Below, piece after piece: positions 6,837-26,839 of a stretch of DNA of 49,393 nt. The stretch covers positions 139,384 to 188,776 of the forward strand of contig WVWN01000001.1 of the NCBI GenBank assembly GCA_011773985.1, in the 5' to 3' direction. Below the pieces are notes generated by a model. The model had not been told where the DNA came from. It worked only from the letters and a program-made list of their open reading frames with translations, and did not search any database. Each line of letters starts with the position of its first letter. Position 1 is the first letter of the stretch. Source of the DNA: Candidatus Zixiibacteriota bacterium. GTDB lineage: Bacteria; RBG-13-66-14; B26-G2; WVWN01. The translations under genes and the position numbers were made by a program.

Positions 6837-7778
6837 ATGCCCGAAGACGAAAGCGGCACGGCGAAAATAAGCCGGCGCGAGTTTTTGAGGGCGGGCGCCG
6901 CGGCCGGCGCGTTCGCGGTTCTCGCGGGCGCTTTCCCCGAAGTAGTTTGGGCCGAGGAGCGGGAACTTCCCGACCTCTCGCGGTTGGGCGAACTCATAAA
7001 CCCCTTCGACGTCGCGGTCGCCCCCGACGGGACCGTATACGTCGCGAACGCGGGGCGCTACGGCATCGTTCAACTCGCGGCCCGCCGTAACCGGTACGTC
7101 GGCCTGGGCCCGGGCACCGCGGACGGCCGGTTCAACTTCCCTATGGGCATAGACGTAGCGGCCGACGGCGCGGTCTTCGTCGCCGACACCAACAACGGCC
7201 GCGTTCAGGTGTTCGACGCCGCCGGCAACCACCGCCGGTCCTTCGGTCGGCTCGGCTACCTGGACGGCGAGTTCCTGCGACCCAAAAGCGTTTGTTGTTA
7301 CGAGGCGGGCGCGTTGGTCGCCGATACGCGGAACCACCGCGTGCAATACGTCGACCTTAAGAGCACGAGGTTGGCTTCCGACGAGCCGGTTACGCGGGCC
7401 ATCCTCGGCGGCCTGGGCGACGGCCCCACGGACCTCAAGCTGCCGCGTTACGTCGCGGCCGACGCCGAGAAGCGCATCTACGTGGCCGACGCCGGGCACC
7501 ACGTCGTCAAGGTCTTCAACCTCGACGGCGACGTCGTCGCTACCGTGGGCGAGGGCGACTTCCGCGAACCGGCGGGTATTGCCGCGGCCGCGGACGGCCG
7601 GCTCTTCGTCGCGGACGCCGGCGCGGCGCAAGTTTTGGCGTTCGACGAGAGCGGCCACAAGCTCGGCTCGGTAAAAGGTTTGGAGAATTTAAAACAGCCG
7701 CGGGGCGTCGCGCTCGCGGACGATTACCTGCTGGTCGCGGACCCGAAAGCGGCGCGCGTTTTCATGGCCGAGGTTTAA
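6837..7778 (+). CDS. Tat-exported NHL-repeat beta-propeller protein
   Basis: 313 residues. The N-terminus carries a twin-arginine signal, SRREFL followed by a hydrophobic Ala/Gly stretch (about 10-40), so export in folded form is predicted. The rest is a series of about six NHL repeats, with repeated units such as PFDVAVAPDGTVYVAN, PMGIDVAADGAVFVADTNN, YVAADAEKRIYVADAG and PAGIAAAADGRLFVADAG, expected to form a six-bladed propeller. NHL propellers are binding scaffolds or occasionally lyases; no catalytic set is evident. Its ATG directly follows the TAG of the fumarase-type gene. Tat routing might reflect a bound cofactor, but none can be identified. Confidence 0.85.
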   Translation: MPEDESGTAKISRREFLRAGAAAGAFAVLAGAFPEVVWAEERELPDLSRLGELINPFDVAVAPDGTVYVANAGRYGIVQLAARRNRYVGLGPGTADGRFNFPMGIDVAADGAVFVADTNNGRVQVFDAAGNHRRSFGRLGYLDGEFLRPKSVCCYEAGALVADTRNHRVQYVDLKSTRLASDEPVTRAILGGLGDGPTDLKLPRYVAADAEKRIYVADAGHHVVKVFNLDGDVVATVGEGDFREPAGIAAAADGRLFVADAGAAQVLAFDESGHKLGSVKGLENLKQPRGVALADDYLLVADPKAARVFMAEV

Positions 7779-8181: not shown

Positions 8182-9849
8182 ATGGCCTTTACGATAATAG
8201 GATACGTTACCCTCGCCGTCTTCGTCGTCGTCCTGGTCCTGACGCTCTTTAGGAAGATAAACCTTCCCATCCAGACGGTTCTAATCCTCATCACGTTATT
8301 TAATATTGCCGTGGCCGTCGGCTTCCGCCTGACGACGGAGGGCAGGCCGGGCGCGCTCCTCTTGGGTAGCGAGCTTTTGAGCGGCATCATCCTCCACCCG
8401 ATAACGGCCCTTTTGGCGGGGCTTTTCCTGGCCGGCGCGCTCACGGCCTCGGGCGGCTTCGACGCCCTCAAGGTTATAATCGAGTGGCTCAAGAAGACGC
8501 CGCTCGGCCTGCCCGGCGCGATGGTCATCCTCATCAACTTGCCGCTCATCGCGATGTTGCCCTGCGGCCGCATTTTAGGGGCGGCGCTTTTGCCGCTGTT
8601 GTTCGCCTTCGGCCCGGAGGAGATGAGGGTCGTCTCGAAGGGCCAGCTCATCGTCCTCGTCGGCGCGTTCGCGCGCAACGCGTTCGGCTCGTGCGGGCCG
8701 TCGCCCATCGGCGGCGTAGGCCAGATCGGCGAGGGCTTCCTGGGCGCGCACTTCGCGACCGCGAGCCTGGGCATCTTGCGCGGGCCCCAGTCCTTCGCAC
8801 TGCTCCTCGGCACCGCCTTCATGGCGCTGTTTCTCAAAATAATTACGACGAAGATATACCCCGAGGACTCGGCGCTGCGCGACGCCCCTCCCGGCGAGGC
8901 GGCCGAGGCGCCCAAGGCCACGGCGCCGACGCGCGGTTACGTCTCGCTCGTCATCTTCGCCGTCGCGCTCCTCGTCTCGATATTCCAGCCCTTCGGCAAG
9001 TACCCCGTGCAGACGGTCCTCGTCGTCGCGTGCCTTTTGATAATTCTCCTCTGCCGCGTGAAGCTCACGGACCTTATGGCCGGGATAATGCTCATGCCCG
9101 TAACGGCGATGGCCGCGGGCTTTCTGGCCGCGGGCTCGCTCTACCTGACGGGCGGTTTCGACGCGCTCAGCAGCTTGCTCAAGGGGCTCTCCGACTTCCG
9201 CGTGCTGGGCATCGCCGGCATGCTCGCCGTCTTCGTCCAGATCCAGACCATAATACCGCTGAGCTGTTCGCGCATCTTGACCGCGGCGCTGGTGCCGACG
9301 CTCTACCTCTTCGGCCCGGCGGGCTTCGGCCTCGTAACCTGGACCCAGCTCGCGATCGTGATGTCGGCCTACATGATTAACGCGACGACGTCGTGCGCGC
9401 CGTCGCCTCTGGGCGGCGCCGGGATGATGGCCGAGGGGACGCTGCGCGCGGAGACCGGCTACCTCAAGGGGGCGTTCTCTTTCGCGGCGATGGCGGTGAT
9501 GGCGCCGCTCGCGGCCGTCTTCATGAAGTTCATCAACCTCGAGATATTCACGCCCGAGGGCTTCACGCAGAACCTTCCCGCGGTCCTCGTCGGCGCCGCG
9601 GTCGTCGTCGTGATCAACTTGATAATGATAAAGCTCGTCGGCGCGTTAACCGGCGCTAACATCCAACGCGGCTGGAACGTCCAGTTCGGCGTCTTTCTGA
9701 TAACGGGCGCGGTGGCGGGCGCGATGCTGGCCTTCGCGCTGTACGATTTCGACTGGGGCGCGGCCGCGCAGGGGGCCTTCGGCGGCCTGGTCGCCGCGTT
9801 GCTCATCGGTTCTATGACTCCCAAGGCCGTGAACGTGCCGAGGGGGTAG
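8182..9849 (+). CDS. Ion-transporter-like membrane protein with internal duplication
   Basis: 555 residues with about 14 hydrophobic segments. The two halves are visibly homologous. The first has GGFDALKVIIEWL, CGRILGAALLPLLFAFGP and SCGPSPIGGVGQIGEG; the second has GGFDALSSLLKGL, CSRILTAALVPTLYLFGP and SCAPSPLGGAGMMAEG. A hydrophilic linker (about 230-255) joins them. Paired short motifs entering the membrane from both halves are typical of ion-transporter-superfamily carriers, where they form the substrate and sodium sites, but I cannot assign a family. Organic anion transport is plausible because of the neighbouring fumarase-type gene. The ATG has no clear ribosome site. A terminator follows. 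Confidence 0.75.
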   Translation: MAFTIIGYVTLAVFVVVLVLTLFRKINLPIQTVLILITLFNIAVAVGFRLTTEGRPGALLLGSELLSGIILHPITALLAGLFLAGALTASGGFDALKVIIEWLKKTPLGLPGAMVILINLPLIAMLPCGRILGAALLPLLFAFGPEEMRVVSKGQLIVLVGAFARNAFGSCGPSPIGGVGQIGEGFLGAHFATASLGILRGPQSFALLLGTAFMALFLKIITTKIYPEDSALRDAPPGEAAEAPKATAPTRGYVSLVIFAVALLVSIFQPFGKYPVQTVLVVACLLIILLCRVKLTDLMAGIMLMPVTAMAAGFLAAGSLYLTGGFDALSSLLKGLSDFRVLGIAGMLAVFVQIQTIIPLSCSRILTAALVPTLYLFGPAGFGLVTWTQLAIVMSAYMINATTSCAPSPLGGAGMMAEGTLRAETGYLKGAFSFAAMAVMAPLAAVFMKFINLEIFTPEGFTQNLPAVLVGAAVVVVINLIMIKLVGALTGANIQRGWNVQFGVFLITGAVAGAMLAFALYDFDWGAAAQGAFGGLVAALLIGSMTPKAVNVPRG

Positions 9850-22185: not shown

Positions 22186-22338
22186 ATGCCGTTCTTCATA
22201 TCGTTTCTGGTTGCGGGCACGGCAAGCGGAGTCATCATCGCGTTTGCCCTCGACATGCGCTCGCCTAAGCAGCTACTGCAGGGCGCGGTGGGCGGTTTTA
22301 TTACCGGTTTGATCATCGCGCTACTCCTGCCGCGTTAG
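22186..22338 (+). CDS. 50-residue two-helix membrane peptide, unknown function
   Basis: ATG 22186 to TAG 22336. AGGAGGA at 22174-22180 gives a near-ideal ribosome site with five-base spacing, which supports a real small gene. The peptide has two hydrophobic helices (about 3-22 and 32-48) rich in Gly and small residues, joined by a short polar loop DMRSPKQ, and ends LLLPR. Gly-rich helix pairs of this kind favour tight packing or oligomerisation. It is the last gene of the TPR unit, just before the promoter of the redox cluster. No family recognised; it may be an accessory subunit of either neighbouring unit. Confidence 0.65.
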   Translation: MPFFISFLVAGTASGVIIAFALDMRSPKQLLQGAVGGFITGLIIALLLPR

Positions 22339-22408: not shown

Positions 22409-22990
22409 ATGCCCGAAGACGATAGAGACAAGGAAAAGCCGCGCGTAAAGTGGATACCGCGCTCGCGCGACGCCGACAAGCCGGCCGCTCTTCCCGGCAT
22501 CCACCGCTACGCCTCCTTCACCAACCTGAGCGACCGGATGACGACGCCCGCGCTCAACCGCGCCGTCATGGTCGGCATCGGCGCCGCGGTGGCGTTGGAC
22601 GTGCTCCGGCCCATCGCGCTTGGAATGTTCGACGCGGCGTATTGTTACGAGTGCCGCGCGTGCTACGCGACGCTGGAGAACTGCCCCGCGTCGATAACTT
22701 TCCAGGCCGAACTCACGGTCGCGTGTCGCACGATGGACTACCGGCGCTTTATAAACAACCGCGGCTTGCTGTGCATTCGCTGCGGCAACTGCAACGGCTT
22801 TTGCGTGCTACACCTCGACCTCGCCGGAATTTTCGGGAAGATGGGGCTCGCGACGGCCCGCGCGGTGAGGGCGGGCAAGGTCCCGTTCGACGTGCTCGAG
22901 CGTGCTCTCTACGAAGGGCTTATAGGCCGTGAATATATTGACGAGCTTTACGAATGGTATCGCTCGCGCGGGGGGCGGCGCCTTGCCTAA
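22409..22990 (+). CDS. Membrane-associated 4Fe-4S protein with atypical cysteine spacing
   Basis: 193 residues. A charged N-terminus (1-50) is followed by one hydrophobic helix (about 52-73) and then a cysteine-rich domain: CYECRACYATLENCP (C-x2-C-x2-C-x6-C-P) and CIRCGNCNGFC (C-x2-C-x2-C-x3-C), about 40 residues apart. This is a two-cluster ferredoxin arrangement in which the first cluster has six rather than three residues before the last cysteine. The remaining C-terminus is helical and has no cysteines. It is the first gene of a five-gene redox cluster and probably passes electrons at the inner membrane. The next gene overlaps its end. No precise family recognised. Confidence 0.75.
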   Translation: MPEDDRDKEKPRVKWIPRSRDADKPAALPGIHRYASFTNLSDRMTTPALNRAVMVGIGAAVALDVLRPIALGMFDAAYCYECRACYATLENCPASITFQAELTVACRTMDYRRFINNRGLLCIRCGNCNGFCVLHLDLAGIFGKMGLATARAVRAGKVPFDVLERALYEGLIGREYIDELYEWYRSRGGRRLA

Positions 22991-23960
22991 GTTCCGCCTA
23001 TCGTTCACCAACCGTTGGCTGCGACTCGCCTTCGTGCTCGCGGTCGTCGCCCTCACCTTCGCGGGCGCGCGGCTCGTCTCGCTCGGCCTGCTCTACGTCG
23101 GCCTTGCGGTATGGGCGTATAGGCGCTGGCGGGAGGGCAGCCGCGGCCTCGCGTACTTTTTGGCCGCGGCCTTGGTCGTCGGCGTCGGCCTTTACGGCTT
23201 CGCCGCTTTCGAGGTATGGAACATGCGCGCCTGGCGCGCGCGCCACTTCGACGATATGGTCTTGCTGGCCGAAGACGGAACGTACGAAGGTGAGGGCAAG
23301 GGGAGGCGCGGTCCGATTAAAGTTGAGCTGACCGTGAAAAGCCATAAGGTCGAGCGTTTCGACGTCGTCCGGCACTACGACACGATTCCTATCGCCTTGG
23401 GCGCGTTTGACGAACTAAAAGAGCTTTTGCGCGGCCGGTCGGACCTGGACGTGGACGCGGTAACGGGCGCGACGTATACGTCGTACGGCGCTATCAACGC
23501 CGCGCGGGACGCCGTGTGGAAGGGGGTCGCGGGCGCGCCGACGATATCGCTCGTATCGAAGGTAACGTTGTGGCTGACGAGCTTGAAGCTGCAACGCGTT
23601 ACGCTTCATTCGCTCGCCGTTTTATTTATCGTGGTCCTCCTCTTCGACTACACGATACAGGCGGCGCTGGTAGAGGGGACCGGCCAATCGCTCAACTGCA
23701 TGGACTGCCAGACCTGCGTCGGCGCTTGCCCGGTGAAGCGCGTGGAGGGCAAGCTCTTCCCGATGGAGATGGTGCTGAGGGCGCGCCTCGGCGACTACGA
23801 CGCGGTCGCGAAGTTGATGGAGTATTGCGTGGGGTGCGCCAAGTGCGCGGCCAAGTGCCCGGCGGGGATAAGCGCGCCGAGCGTCGCGGCCGCGGTGGCC
23901 CAATATCTGCGGAAGCAGAAGAGGGAAGAAGAGGCCGAGTTTTTCGAGGAGCGCGTGTAA
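22983..23960 (+). CDS. Transmembrane protein with covalent-FMN domain and two 4Fe-4S clusters
   Basis: 325 residues from TTG 22983, preceded by a G-rich ribosome site and overlapping the previous stop; an in-frame GTG at 22929 is the alternative. Two or three N-terminal helices (about 10-75) lead to an FMN-binding domain (about 95-180) carrying DAVTGATYTS, the flavinylation motif Dxx(S/T)GAxxT of NqrC/RnfG/NosR-type domains, in which ApbE links FMN to the last threonine. A further helix (about 203-225) precedes CMDCQTCVGACP and CVGCAKCAAKCP, two HdrC-like clusters. The layout puts flavin outside and Fe-S inside, so electrons can cross the membrane. No apbE lies in the window. Confidence 0.85.
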   Translation: MPKFRLSFTNRWLRLAFVLAVVALTFAGARLVSLGLLYVGLAVWAYRRWREGSRGLAYFLAAALVVGVGLYGFAAFEVWNMRAWRARHFDDMVLLAEDGTYEGEGKGRRGPIKVELTVKSHKVERFDVVRHYDTIPIALGAFDELKELLRGRSDLDVDAVTGATYTSYGAINAARDAVWKGVAGAPTISLVSKVTLWLTSLKLQRVTLHSLAVLFIVVLLFDYTIQAALVEGTGQSLNCMDCQTCVGACPVKRVEGKLFPMEMVLRARLGDYDAVAKLMEYCVGCAKCAAKCPAGISAPSVAAAVAQYLRKQKREEEAEFFEERV

Positions 23961-23996
23961 CGCCGGCCCGGGCGGCGGACGCGTTCAACGACGCGT

Positions 23997-24764
23997 ATGG
24001 CGCTAACTATTAAAATAAAAAAAGCTCACGTCATTTGGGCGTCGGTCGTGGTGGCGCTCGGCGCCGCGGCCTTCGGCTTTTTGGAGTTCTCGAGCACGAA
24101 CACGTTCTGCTACCTCTGCCACTTCGACGCGCGCTTCCAGGAGCCGTGGCGGGCCTCGGCCCACTTCAAGGAAGAAGTTACCTGCAAGGACTGCCACTTC
24201 GGCCCGGGCGTCTTCGGCCTCGTGGACGCCAAGTGGCTCGGCGTTAAAGACGCGGTAATGGCCGTAACCACGGCCGAAGACTTCAACAACATTGAGATCT
24301 ATGCGCAGTCGAAGGAAGATAAGTGTAAGAAGTGCCACAAGGCTTATAAGAAGGTGAACGTCGTCGCGGGCGCGGACCTCGAGCCGCCGCTCGCGGCGGC
24401 CGTCGTCTCGCTGGCCTACGACCATCAGCGCCACGACGACGTCCGAGAGGTCTGCGGCCGTTGCCACGACAGCGCCGTGTTCTTCGCGAGCGCGGACTAT
24501 GCGACGTGCGATTCGTGTCACGCGGGCCTGGTCCACAAGCTGGATGCGAAGTACGAGAGCGCGGTCCCGCGCGCCGATACCTGCAGCCGCTGCCATACCG
24601 GCCGGGTGCACGTATGGGGTGCCAAGGCTGCGGGCCTCGACGACGGCGGCACCTTCTTCTTCAACGATTGCCCGGCCAACGAGAAGACGATACGCGACGG
24701 CGTCCTTCCGCCGTCGGGCAATTGCGACCGTTGCCACCCGCCGCTCGCGCGAGCGGGGGAGTGA
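23997..24764 (+). CDS. Membrane-anchored heptaheme cytochrome c (NapC/NirT-like)
   Basis: 255 residues. An N-terminal helix (about 12-30) is directly followed by seven CxxCH heme-attachment sites: CYLCH, CKDCH, CKKCH, CGRCH, CDSCH, CSRCH and CDRCH. The first two are spaced as in NapC/NirT quinol dehydrogenases, which have four hemes; the extra three suggest a fusion-like extension or a distinct family. Additional histidines (SAHFKEE, YDHQRHDD) can serve as distal ligands. The hemes lie in the periplasm and would accept electrons from the FMN protein encoded just upstream, or from quinol. The terminal acceptor is unknown. Cytochrome maturation genes are not in the window. Confidence 0.92.
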   Translation: MALTIKIKKAHVIWASVVVALGAAAFGFLEFSSTNTFCYLCHFDARFQEPWRASAHFKEEVTCKDCHFGPGVFGLVDAKWLGVKDAVMAVTTAEDFNNIEIYAQSKEDKCKKCHKAYKKVNVVAGADLEPPLAAAVVSLAYDHQRHDDVREVCGRCHDSAVFFASADYATCDSCHAGLVHKLDAKYESAVPRADTCSRCHTGRVHVWGAKAAGLDDGGTFFFNDCPANEKTIRDGVLPPSGNCDRCHPPLARAGE

Positions 24765-24778
24765 GGTGAGCTGGCGTT

Positions 24779-25249
24779 ATGTCGCCCTATTTCAATTACG
24801 AGCCGCCGCGCTATCAGGTAACCCTGGACATAATACTCGACGAGGAGTTCCCCCCCGTCGCGCGGTGCCGCCTCCTTTCCGAGGGGATAAAACCCTATCA
24901 TCGGCTCGCGCTCGCGGAGGTCGAGATCGCGGGCGATAAAGGTTGCGTCGCCTGCGGCAATTGCGTCGACTCCTGCCCCATACTGAGGCGCGAGCCCGAG
25001 CGCCTCCAGAAAACGGAACAGCGTACGTCCATGGCGCTCGAGGCCGTCGTGGGCGAGGATTGCGAGCAGTGCTACGCCTGCATCCTCGCCTGCCCGCAGG
25101 TAGAGACGAACATCAAAGACTTCGTCGTCGACACGCGCGTCCCGGAGGTCATCGCGCCGTCCAAGACGATGACTTTCCTCGATAGATATTTGATGGCGGT
25201 CGTGGCCATGGCCATCGGCGTTTTACTCGGCCTGTTTTTAAGGACGTAG
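24779..25249 (+). CDS. Tail-anchored 2x[4Fe-4S] ferredoxin-like protein
   Basis: 156 residues. Two standard clusters, CVACGNCVDSCP (about 56-67) and CEQCYACILACP (about 98-109), each C-x2-C-x2-C-x3-C-P, are followed by a single C-terminal helix (about 136-154, ending LGLFLRT). The protein is therefore probably fixed to the inner face of the inner membrane by its tail. It starts 14 bases after the cytochrome gene. In HdrC- and SdhB-like systems such domains link a soluble dehydrogenase to membrane carriers, and that role fits here. No exact family assigned. Confidence 0.85.
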   Translation: MSPYFNYEPPRYQVTLDIILDEEFPPVARCRLLSEGIKPYHRLALAEVEIAGDKGCVACGNCVDSCPILRREPERLQKTEQRTSMALEAVVGEDCEQCYACILACPQVETNIKDFVVDTRVPEVIAPSKTMTFLDRYLMAVVAMAIGVLLGLFLRT

Positions 25250-25280
25250 CGGCGAGTTGTCACGCGCGACGAGCCCAGCT

Positions 25281-25287
25281 GAGGAGG
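25281..25287 (+). promoter_or_regulatory. Ribosome site that fixes the GTG 25296 start
   Basis: GAGGAGG eight bases before GTG 25296, inside the frame opened by TTG 25257. It favours the downstream start. Confidence 0.7.
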
Positions 25288-25295
25288 ATCTACCG

Positions 25296-25979
25296 GTGGA
25301 AGAAGTCGAAAAGGTAACGATAAGCATTATGGGGCGGAAGTACCGCGTGCCCGCCGGCCTTACCATCCTACAGGCGATGGAGTTCTCCGGATATCAGTTG
25401 GCGCGCGGCGTCGGCTGCCGGGGCGGCGTCTGCGGCGCGTGTTCGGCGACCTACCGCGTCCCGGAGGACTACCGTGTGAAATCGGGCCTCGCCTGTCAGA
25501 CCGTCGTCGAGGATAAGATGGAGCTGGTCCAGCTGCCGTTTTTCCCGGCCAACAGGGCCACCTACGAAGTCGAGGCGACCGCCCCGACCGAGAAGACACT
25601 TTTGGAACATTATCCCGAGATCGCGCGGTGCATGGGCTGCAACTCGTGCACGCTGATTTGCCCGCAGAACCTCGAGGTTATGGAGTTTATGTCCGCGGCG
25701 CTGCGCGGCGACGTAGAGACGGTGGCCAAACTTTCGTTCGAGTGTATATTATGCCGCCTTTGTACGACCCGTTGTCCCGCGGACGAGGTCCAACCTTACG
25801 TCGCGATTCTCGCGCGACGGCTTTACGGCCGGCACATCGCGCCGCCGTCGCCCCACGTCGCCAAACGCGTCGGCGAAATTATGGAGGGAAAATTCGACGC
25901 CGACCTCGCGGGGATGAAGGAGAAGAAGGTCGACGAGCTCCGGGAGATGTACAAGAGCCGGGACATAGAACCACAATGA
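25296..25979 (+). CDS. 2Fe-2S plus 2x[4Fe-4S] iron-sulfur protein (SdhB/HdrC-like)
   Basis: 227 residues from GTG 25296. An N-terminal plant-type 2Fe-2S domain shows CRGGVCGAC (C-x4-C-x2-C, about 42-50) with the fourth cysteine in GLACQ. The second domain has CMGCNSCTLICP and CILCRLCTTRCP, typical of HdrC and the C-terminal half of succinate dehydrogenase/fumarate reductase iron-sulfur subunits, except that both four-cysteine sets are complete. The C-terminus is charged and helical. It is soluble and probably receives electrons from a cytosolic donor (not encoded here) and passes them to the tail-anchored ferredoxin and FMN protein. Its stop overlaps the next start as ATGA. Confidence 0.88.
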   Translation: MEEVEKVTISIMGRKYRVPAGLTILQAMEFSGYQLARGVGCRGGVCGACSATYRVPEDYRVKSGLACQTVVEDKMELVQLPFFPANRATYEVEATAPTEKTLLEHYPEIARCMGCNSCTLICPQNLEVMEFMSAALRGDVETVAKLSFECILCRLCTTRCPADEVQPYVAILARRLYGRHIAPPSPHVAKRVGEIMEGKFDADLAGMKEKKVDELREMYKSRDIEPQ

Positions 25980-26839
25980 CGGCTAGGTTTATTACCTGGG
26001 CGATTGGCGCGGCGCTGGCCGCGGTTCCCGCCGCGGCCACCCACGGCATCCTCCTCGTCTCCGACCAGGTCGACGGCGTACCCAATCCCCAGTTGTTCGA
26101 CGAATATTATACGGGCGCGGTGCGCCAGGCCGGGTACACGTACGTTATGTGGGACCACTACGCCCAGGGCGAGCCGAGCTTCGAGGTCCTTCGGAAATAT
26201 AAAGTCGTAATATGGTTTACCTCCACCTCGGGCGACGCGCCCGCCTCCGACCCTATTCGCGGCAACATTACGCTCTCGCCCGCCGAACAGAAATCGCTCG
26301 TCGCGTTCCTCGGCCAGACGCCCGGTACGACGACGCTGATGCTCTCGGGTATGTACGTCGCCTGGAACTGCGTCGCGGACGCGCGGCGCGAGAGACAGTT
26401 CTACAAACCCTTATTCTCCGATTACCTCAGGCTCAAGTACCCTCGCGACAACTTCGACAATTGGATCAGAGTCAAGGACGATTGGAAGCTGGTGGGCGAA
26501 GGGCCTTGCCCCATCTTGAGGGGTAAGACCTATACCGTCAATTGGCGCCACCGTACGAATTGGCCGGACCAGCTCGAGTCGGCCGCCGGCGGCGCGCCCT
26601 CCGCCTGGTGGCAGGACCTCGAGCGCAAGCGCCATCATCGCGCCGTAATCCGCGCCGTGGGGAAGAAGGCCGACGGCGGGACTTACAAAATCGTCCTTTT
26701 CTCCTGCCCCTTCGAAAATATCCTGTATGACGGCGACCGCGTCGAGGTTATGAAAAACTTCTTGGATTGGGCGAAGCCCCTGTCCGAGGTCGCCGTCGAG
26801 CCTGCGAGCCTCGGCCGCGTCAAAGCCCTCTACCGTTAA
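25976..26839 (+). CDS. Exported protein with GATase-like domain and C-terminal SLGRVKALYR tail
   Basis: 287 residues from ATG 25976, coupled to the Fe-S gene by ATGA. A Sec signal (about 1-22) precedes a domain that starts HGILLVSDQVDG and continues YYTGAVRQAGYTYVMWD, YKVVIWFTSTSG and LSPAEQKSLVAFL. These resemble the glutamine-amidotransferase-like fold seen in secreted peptidase-associated and sorted proteins. Two or more cysteines (NCVAD, EGPCPIL, SCPFEN) could form disulfides. The final residues ASLGRVKALYR nearly equal the end of the protein at 32188 (ASLGRVKALFR), suggesting a sorting or anchoring tag. Its coupling to the redox genes is unexpected for a plain structural protein. Function unknown. 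Confidence 0.75.
   Translation: MTARFITWAIGAALAAVPAAATHGILLVSDQVDGVPNPQLFDEYYTGAVRQAGYTYVMWDHYAQGEPSFEVLRKYKVVIWFTSTSGDAPASDPIRGNITLSPAEQKSLVAFLGQTPGTTTLMLSGMYVAWNCVADARRERQFYKPLFSDYLRLKYPRDNFDNWIRVKDDWKLVGEGPCPILRGKTYTVNWRHRTNWPDQLESAAGGAPSAWWQDLERKRHHRAVIRAVGKKADGGTYKIVLFSCPFENILYDGDRVEVMKNFLDWAKPLSEVAVEPASLGRVKALYR

Follow-up and report, generated by a model that had tools for sequence, protein, structure and literature searches.

The subject of this report is a cluster of five genes, A to E, in a 49,393-nucleotide stretch of DNA (the window; positions 139384-188776 of contig 11 of genome G000, a 2.68 Mb assembly, 91% complete) from an uncultured member of Coatesbacteria. The products of A-D probably constitute the membrane electron module of a Tfr-type fumarate reductase, of which E is the FrdB-like subunit and the catalytic flavoprotein FrdA is encoded apart, beside sucC. 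A-D are best read as taking the place of Hdr as the partner of FrdAB, wiring the fumarate reductase to periplasmic hemes.

All five open reading frames (ORFs) were confirmed where an earlier reading of the sequence alone (the sequence-only reading) had placed them, on one common strand (forward), along with the FMN_bind domain, the seven CxxCH motifs, the tail anchor and the Fe-S motifs; the starts of B and E were moved by homology. Gene A (22409-22990) encodes a membrane protein with one transmembrane helix and two 4Fe-4S-type motifs, CxxCxxCx6CP and CxxCxxCx3C, the first of which reads CxxDxxC in a sister family of Coatesbacteria (f5); a family search with A gave no match above the cut-off, and its homologs are kept across Coatesbacteria and a second phylum. 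Gene B (22986-23960) encodes a membrane protein with an FMN_bind domain (39 bits, cut-off 22), the motif DAVTGATYTS, a Fer4_8 match and two C-terminal 4Fe-4S clusters of the form CxxCxxCx3CP. Its start, judged by homologs, is TTG 22986 and not GTG 22929, which leaves an overlap of 5 nucleotides with A; the predicted attachment residue of flavin mononucleotide (FMN) is Thr182 in DAVTGATYTS (codon 23472-23474, numbering from GTG 22929). Gene C (23997-24764) encodes a heptaheme cytochrome c with seven CxxCH motifs, an N-terminal signal anchor and a NapC/NrfH-like N-terminal region (Cytochrom_NNT, 37 bits, cut-off 24; Cytochrome_C7), for which a profile search of the PDB gave no match. Gene D (24779-25249) encodes an HdrC-like 2x4Fe-4S protein with a Fer4 dicluster domain, tail-anchored by a C-terminal transmembrane helix. 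Gene E (25296-25979) has one Fer2 and two Fer4 domains, i.e. a 2Fe-2S and two 4Fe-4S sites; homology and a Shine-Dalgarno sequence (GAGGAGG) just before it place its start at GTG 25296, replacing TTG 25257. Hydropathy and charges suggest that in B the arginine-rich loop and the Fe-S domain lie inside and the FMN domain outside, and that C is anchored with its hemes outside, while the orientation of A is uncertain.

Part of the evidence for our reading is the pairing of E with FrdA. A profile of E, run against 372 sampled genomes, had hits outside the phylum at 32 places, spread over 31 genomes, and in all 31 places that were read a gene for a FrdA/TfrA-like flavoprotein (fumarate reductase/succinate dehydrogenase type) adjoins E. 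Of the 14 Coatesbacteria genomes, 12 have both E and FrdA and the other two have neither; one of these two (G002) is the sole genome with Sdh_cyt anchors, which belong to an ordinary Sdh operon. Sdh_cyt was not found in G000 or in any other of the 14, the FrdC and FrdD models not having been run genome-wide. One caution is that G004, a same-genus chromosome of which 1.6 Mb was covered by reading, has a canonical SdhAB besides the E-FrdA system, and G005, to judge by a flavoprotein hit, probably has one too. The G004 copy (L238:14296-17452) comprises a canonical SdhA (790 bits to sdhA_forward) and a SdhB-like gene beside a 229-amino-acid membrane protein; no Sdh_cyt match was found in this genome, and the anchor of this second complex II is of uncertain type. 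E has no match to the CCG domain (HdrB-like, TfrB-type) and ends after its two 4Fe-4S sites. By its sequence and gene neighborhood, E is a FrdB-like subunit, the partner of the FrdA/TfrA-like flavoprotein.

The flavoprotein itself was identified through the sister family f5 (G008-G013), where the operon, pieced together from contigs several of which are short, runs A-B-lipoprotein-D-E, followed by a FAD_binding_2 flavoprotein of about 600 amino acids; the longest contig continues with genes for cytochrome b6 and for a hexaheme protein. Among named families this flavoprotein matches TfrA best (343 bits, less than the equivalog cut-off requires); the next matches are SdhA/FrdA and L-aspartate oxidase. 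Its orthologue in the window's genome (contig 4, 3898-5538; 547 amino acids, 61% identity) lies next to sucC, and the FrdA-like gene is found together with sucC and sucD in G003, G005 and G006. TfrA is again the best named match (317 bits, the equivalog cut-off of 718 not being reached). The fumarate-site motifs HPTG, TExxRG, RD, HY..GG and HGxNRL are conserved, the position of the histidine that binds flavin adenine dinucleotide (FAD) covalently is occupied by asparagine, and no export signal was seen. The flavoproteins of f5 (L047:7356-9161 and relatives) also have an N-terminal helix-hairpin-helix insert (HHH_3) found neither in the window's genus nor in the other aligned sequences.

These results bear on the sequence-only reading, which had taken the five genes for a separate system without a terminal enzyme and had named, as the finding that would speak against it, homologous clusters that always include a known terminal reductase or Rnf/Nqr subunits. 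The homologs do come with an enzyme of known kind: FrdA adjoins E in all 31 outside loci read and in the f5 operon, and the orthologue in G000 lies beside sucC. A free-standing conduit, in which a general cytosolic donor would supply periplasmic acceptors and D and E would link to various enzymes, would suit the fact that the five genes are contiguous here with no catalytic gene among them, and Fe-S relays can be shared; we nevertheless consider it very improbable in view of the invariable E-FrdA adjacency, the perfect co-occurrence of the two genes in the phylum and the presence of FrdA in the operons of both the sister family and the second phylum.

Comparison of the loci outside Coatesbacteria distinguished an Hdr type and a membrane type. 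HdrA, HdrB or MvhD genes are present in 23 of the 29 outside loci that lack D, and a gene for a MvhA-like [NiFe] hydrogenase in eleven, and none of the 29 holds A, B, C, D or the gene T described below; conversely, no Hdr genes were found in the membrane-type loci. Both types occur in G003, which has D-E at one locus and, elsewhere, a second pair, E'-FrdA', accompanied by HdrA, MvhD and an NADH module of the HydG/AsrB-like kind. The E'-FrdA' locus (L110, 1910000-1929000) also contains ShyB/AsrA-like genes, with 19- and 9-heme cytochromes nearby, and resembles a soluble fumarate reductase linked to NADH or Hdr.

The membrane type was also found in a second phylum, in four genomes (G327, G388, G389 and G048; two of the outside E loci plus two more genomes) that carry A, B, a heptaheme C and D with FrdAB and a Qrc-like module. 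The order in three of them is T-A-B-(QrcC-, NrfD- and QrcB-like)-heptaheme C-D-E-FrdA, the contig of G388 beginning at A, and G048 probably has the same set split over two contigs. Each of the seven hemes in the window's C has an aligned counterpart in the second-phylum C (28/24% identity; hhalign probability 98.7). In a tree of E the membrane type requires two changes, and a single origin of this type is possible. All nine B proteins of Coatesbacteria have the flavinylation motif [ST]GAT, versus none of four in the second phylum, where (L163, L177, L178 and L179) it is replaced by GFVFRN(E/Q)R and the remainder of B is kept. Since the motif is absent where the Qrc-like module is present, a correlation seen in two lineages only, FMN and Qrc may be alternative links.

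Conservation within the genus shows that the cluster is not a chance assembly. The order A-E is kept in three same-genus genomes at 73-93% identity, and the ratio of the rates of non-synonymous and synonymous substitutions (dN/dS) is 0.08-0.24 across all five genes, demonstrating purifying selection; the same-genus relatives include CP070633 ('Candidatus Coatesbacteria bacterium bin961'). C is absent from the f5 operon. The close packing of the genes has an exception in two same-genus genomes, in which an NHL-repeat gene is inserted between B and C (L034:11087-12055 and L038:13092-14057).

If A-E and FrdA assemble as one complex, electrons from the periplasm would enter at the seven hemes of C, pass to the FMN on the outer domain of B and from there to the Fe-S clusters of B and A at the inner face, then through the tail-anchored D to E, and finally to the FAD of FrdA and to fumarate; the complex could possibly run in reverse as a succinate dehydrogenase. 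Such a membrane route, which would join cytosolic Fe-S proteins and periplasmic hemes by way of a probably flavinylated domain and which differs from Rnf, Nqr, Nos and Nap, agrees with the sequence-only reading. An FMN_bind domain with a [ST]GA[ST] motif and an ApbE gene in the same genome, the sequence marks of ApbE flavinylation, are both present in G000, and B is probably flavinylated. Cytochrome c assembly genes were found in all genomes, G000 included. The futalosine genes for menaquinone are absent from all 14 Coatesbacteria genomes, and a UbiA family member is present in all of them, which is not specific and so does not decide on a quinone.

As to direction, the sequence-only reading had electrons flowing from a cytosolic donor to the periplasm, which is one of the two possible directions, but the evidence slightly favors the reverse. 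The same complex working as a succinate dehydrogenase, in which electrons would leave succinate and move out to periplasmic hemes (in the second phylum, to the Qrc-like quinone module), is in our view unlikely, though it is the strongest of the alternatives. It would fit the adjacency of FrdA and sucCD in four genomes, although sucCD can work whichever way the cycle runs; Qrc passes electrons of periplasmic cytochromes to menaquinone (PMC6303296), which is consistent with outward flow; and NadB is the only other member of the SdhA/FrdA family found in G000. Covalent binding of FAD, however, gives the flavin a higher potential and, according to PMC10238741, is required for succinate to be oxidized. 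Because the covalent-FAD histidine is missing, the closest named family (TfrA) is reductive and G004 keeps a separate SdhAB, the predicted direction leans towards fumarate reduction.

Several observations weigh against a fumarate reductase wired through A-D. FrdA lies outside the cluster in the window's own genus, where its link to E is drawn by homology; the f5 operon has no C; and the D-E locus of G003 has no A, B or C in the stretch read, so A and B are not always needed. The single transmembrane helix between FMN and the Fe-S clusters leaves the path of electrons across the membrane unexplained, and the path as proposed names no electron partner for C. Models made by AlphaFold2 with three sequences (predicted local distance difference test, pLDDT, 43 for B and 31 for C) are too poor for interfaces. 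Separately, multiheme cytochrome clusters with 4 to 10 CxxCH motifs were found in G004 at 398-401 kb and at 431-437 kb (L216-L218), of which the latter also contains genes for cytochrome b6, a Rieske protein and a PetD-like protein alongside 9- and 10-heme cytochromes; the multiheme cytochromes of both clusters are possible electron partners of C.

A further gene, T (8182-9846, forward strand), encodes a 555-amino-acid polytopic membrane protein of no known family, with no match in profile searches of Pfam, NCBIfam and the PDB. In nine loci, drawn from two phyla, a homolog of T immediately precedes A (64-65% identity in the second phylum, 41-45% in f5), while in the window's genus T is located 12.6 kb upstream of A. 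Just before A the window contains a 50-amino-acid two-helix ORF (22186-22335, forward strand), conserved in L034 and L035, which duplicates the hairpin at the C-terminal end of T: the BLASTP match by itself is weak (E 0.007), but the z-score against shuffles is 7-10, with the same segment in four T proteins. The T-A adjacency and this hairpin copy suggest that T, or its hairpin, works with A. T belongs to the A-E set as a conserved membrane partner without annotation, and is a candidate for a transporter-like or ion-coupling role. The same adjacency, together with the G003 locus that has D-E and no A, B or C in the stretch read, could mean that A, B and T form a membrane complex of their own with a different job and are only neighbors of a D-E-FrdA fumarate reductase. 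We regard this as quite improbable, as A-B share one cluster with D-E not only in the window's genus but also in the sister family and in the second phylum, and neither A nor B occurs in any of the 29 Hdr-type or unlinked loci.

Among the other neighbors, an NHL-repeat protein with a twin-arginine translocation signal is encoded before T (6837-7778, forward strand); in the second phylum, T-A-B are preceded by genes for related NHL proteins; its link to the system is weaker. A secreted protein of no Pfam or NCBIfam family (25976-26839; also L111:10411-11265) is encoded directly 3' of E in all four same-genus genomes, and also directly after E in G003; it may belong to the system. A search of plasmids with B gave a generic FMN-binding protein as the sole match, and a contig scan with B hit two loci of the same genus as well as two FMN_bind proteins that are unrelated. 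G000 has a second FMN_bind protein of about 440 amino acids (contig 67, 48902-49129; L002), unrelated to the cluster.

The classes of complex II are defined by the membrane anchor, and those described rely on quinone sites, in some cases along with hemes b or Fe-S clusters. Against this background we tentatively propose, as a possibility we rate somewhat below even, a new class in which cytosolic FrdAB would be joined to the periplasm through covalent FMN, 4Fe-4S clusters and a heptaheme cytochrome, so that periplasmic cytochromes feed fumarate reduction directly and charge crosses the membrane, the enzyme needing no quinone site of its own; T may couple this to the movement of ions or dicarboxylates. 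If confirmed, this would be a complex II anchor built on flavin, Fe-S and c-hemes, and one FrdAB core would switch between a soluble Hdr/hydrogenase partner and a membrane/periplasmic one. It also offers a testable function for an uncharacterised flavinylated protein and for heptaheme cytochromes of uncultured phyla, and points to T as an unannotated membrane protein tied to the system.

Among known systems, TfrAB is similar in that FrdA best matches TfrA, E has the layout of a 2Fe-2S and two 4Fe-4S sites, and homologous pairs occur with Hdr/MvhD genes, and clusters of tfrAB with flxABCD-hdrABC are already known from tubeworm symbionts (PMC6315080); A-E differs in having, instead of an Hdr or CCG partner, a membrane set with an FMN domain, Fe-S clusters and a heptaheme cytochrome. 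The FrdA and FrdB-like core is shared with complex II classes A-F, but no Sdh_cyt-type anchor or quinone-site subunit was recognized, the second cluster of E has four cysteines, FAD is predicted to be non-covalent, and none of the six anchor classes reviewed resembles A-D (PMC10238741). Qrc (PMC6303296) likewise has a membrane-anchored multiheme cytochrome c, and the second-phylum cluster has QrcB-, QrcC- and QrcD-like genes; the Coatesbacteria set, in contrast, has seven hemes, cytosolic FrdAB and no NrfD-type protein, and Qrc was rejected for the window's genome, as NrfD/QrcD (PF03916) gave no match in the 14 Coatesbacteria genomes. The NapH-like, NosR and PceC flavinylated systems (PMC8238504) have the same outer FMN_bind domain followed by a transmembrane segment and inner Fe-S clusters; Fer4_5 (PF12801), which PMC8238504 gives as defining the NapH-like family, is not among the matches of A or B, and a NosR/PceC-type system was rejected since the partner of B is FrdAB and no NosZ, dehalogenase or nitrite reductase is present. 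The extracytosolic FMN fumarate reductase-like enzymes in the same survey also join a flavinylated domain to a FrdA-family enzyme, but there the enzyme is outside; this candidate was rejected given the cytosolic-side Fe-S chain and a FrdA with no export signal. A Rnf/Nqr relative was rejected as well, with no RnfA/D/E or NqrB/D/E among the cluster neighbors read (these were not searched for genome-wide). None of the ten flavinylated systems surveyed combines cytosolic FrdAB with a heptaheme partner in the portions of PMC8238504 and PMC11334425 available to us, and the arrangement was not found in the literature on Coatesbacteria metabolism or Qrc-linked fumarate reductases, most subscription papers lying outside the coverage. 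As far as these two papers and PMC10238741, PMC6315080 and PMC6303296 show, the system is a known kind of enzyme in a new arrangement.

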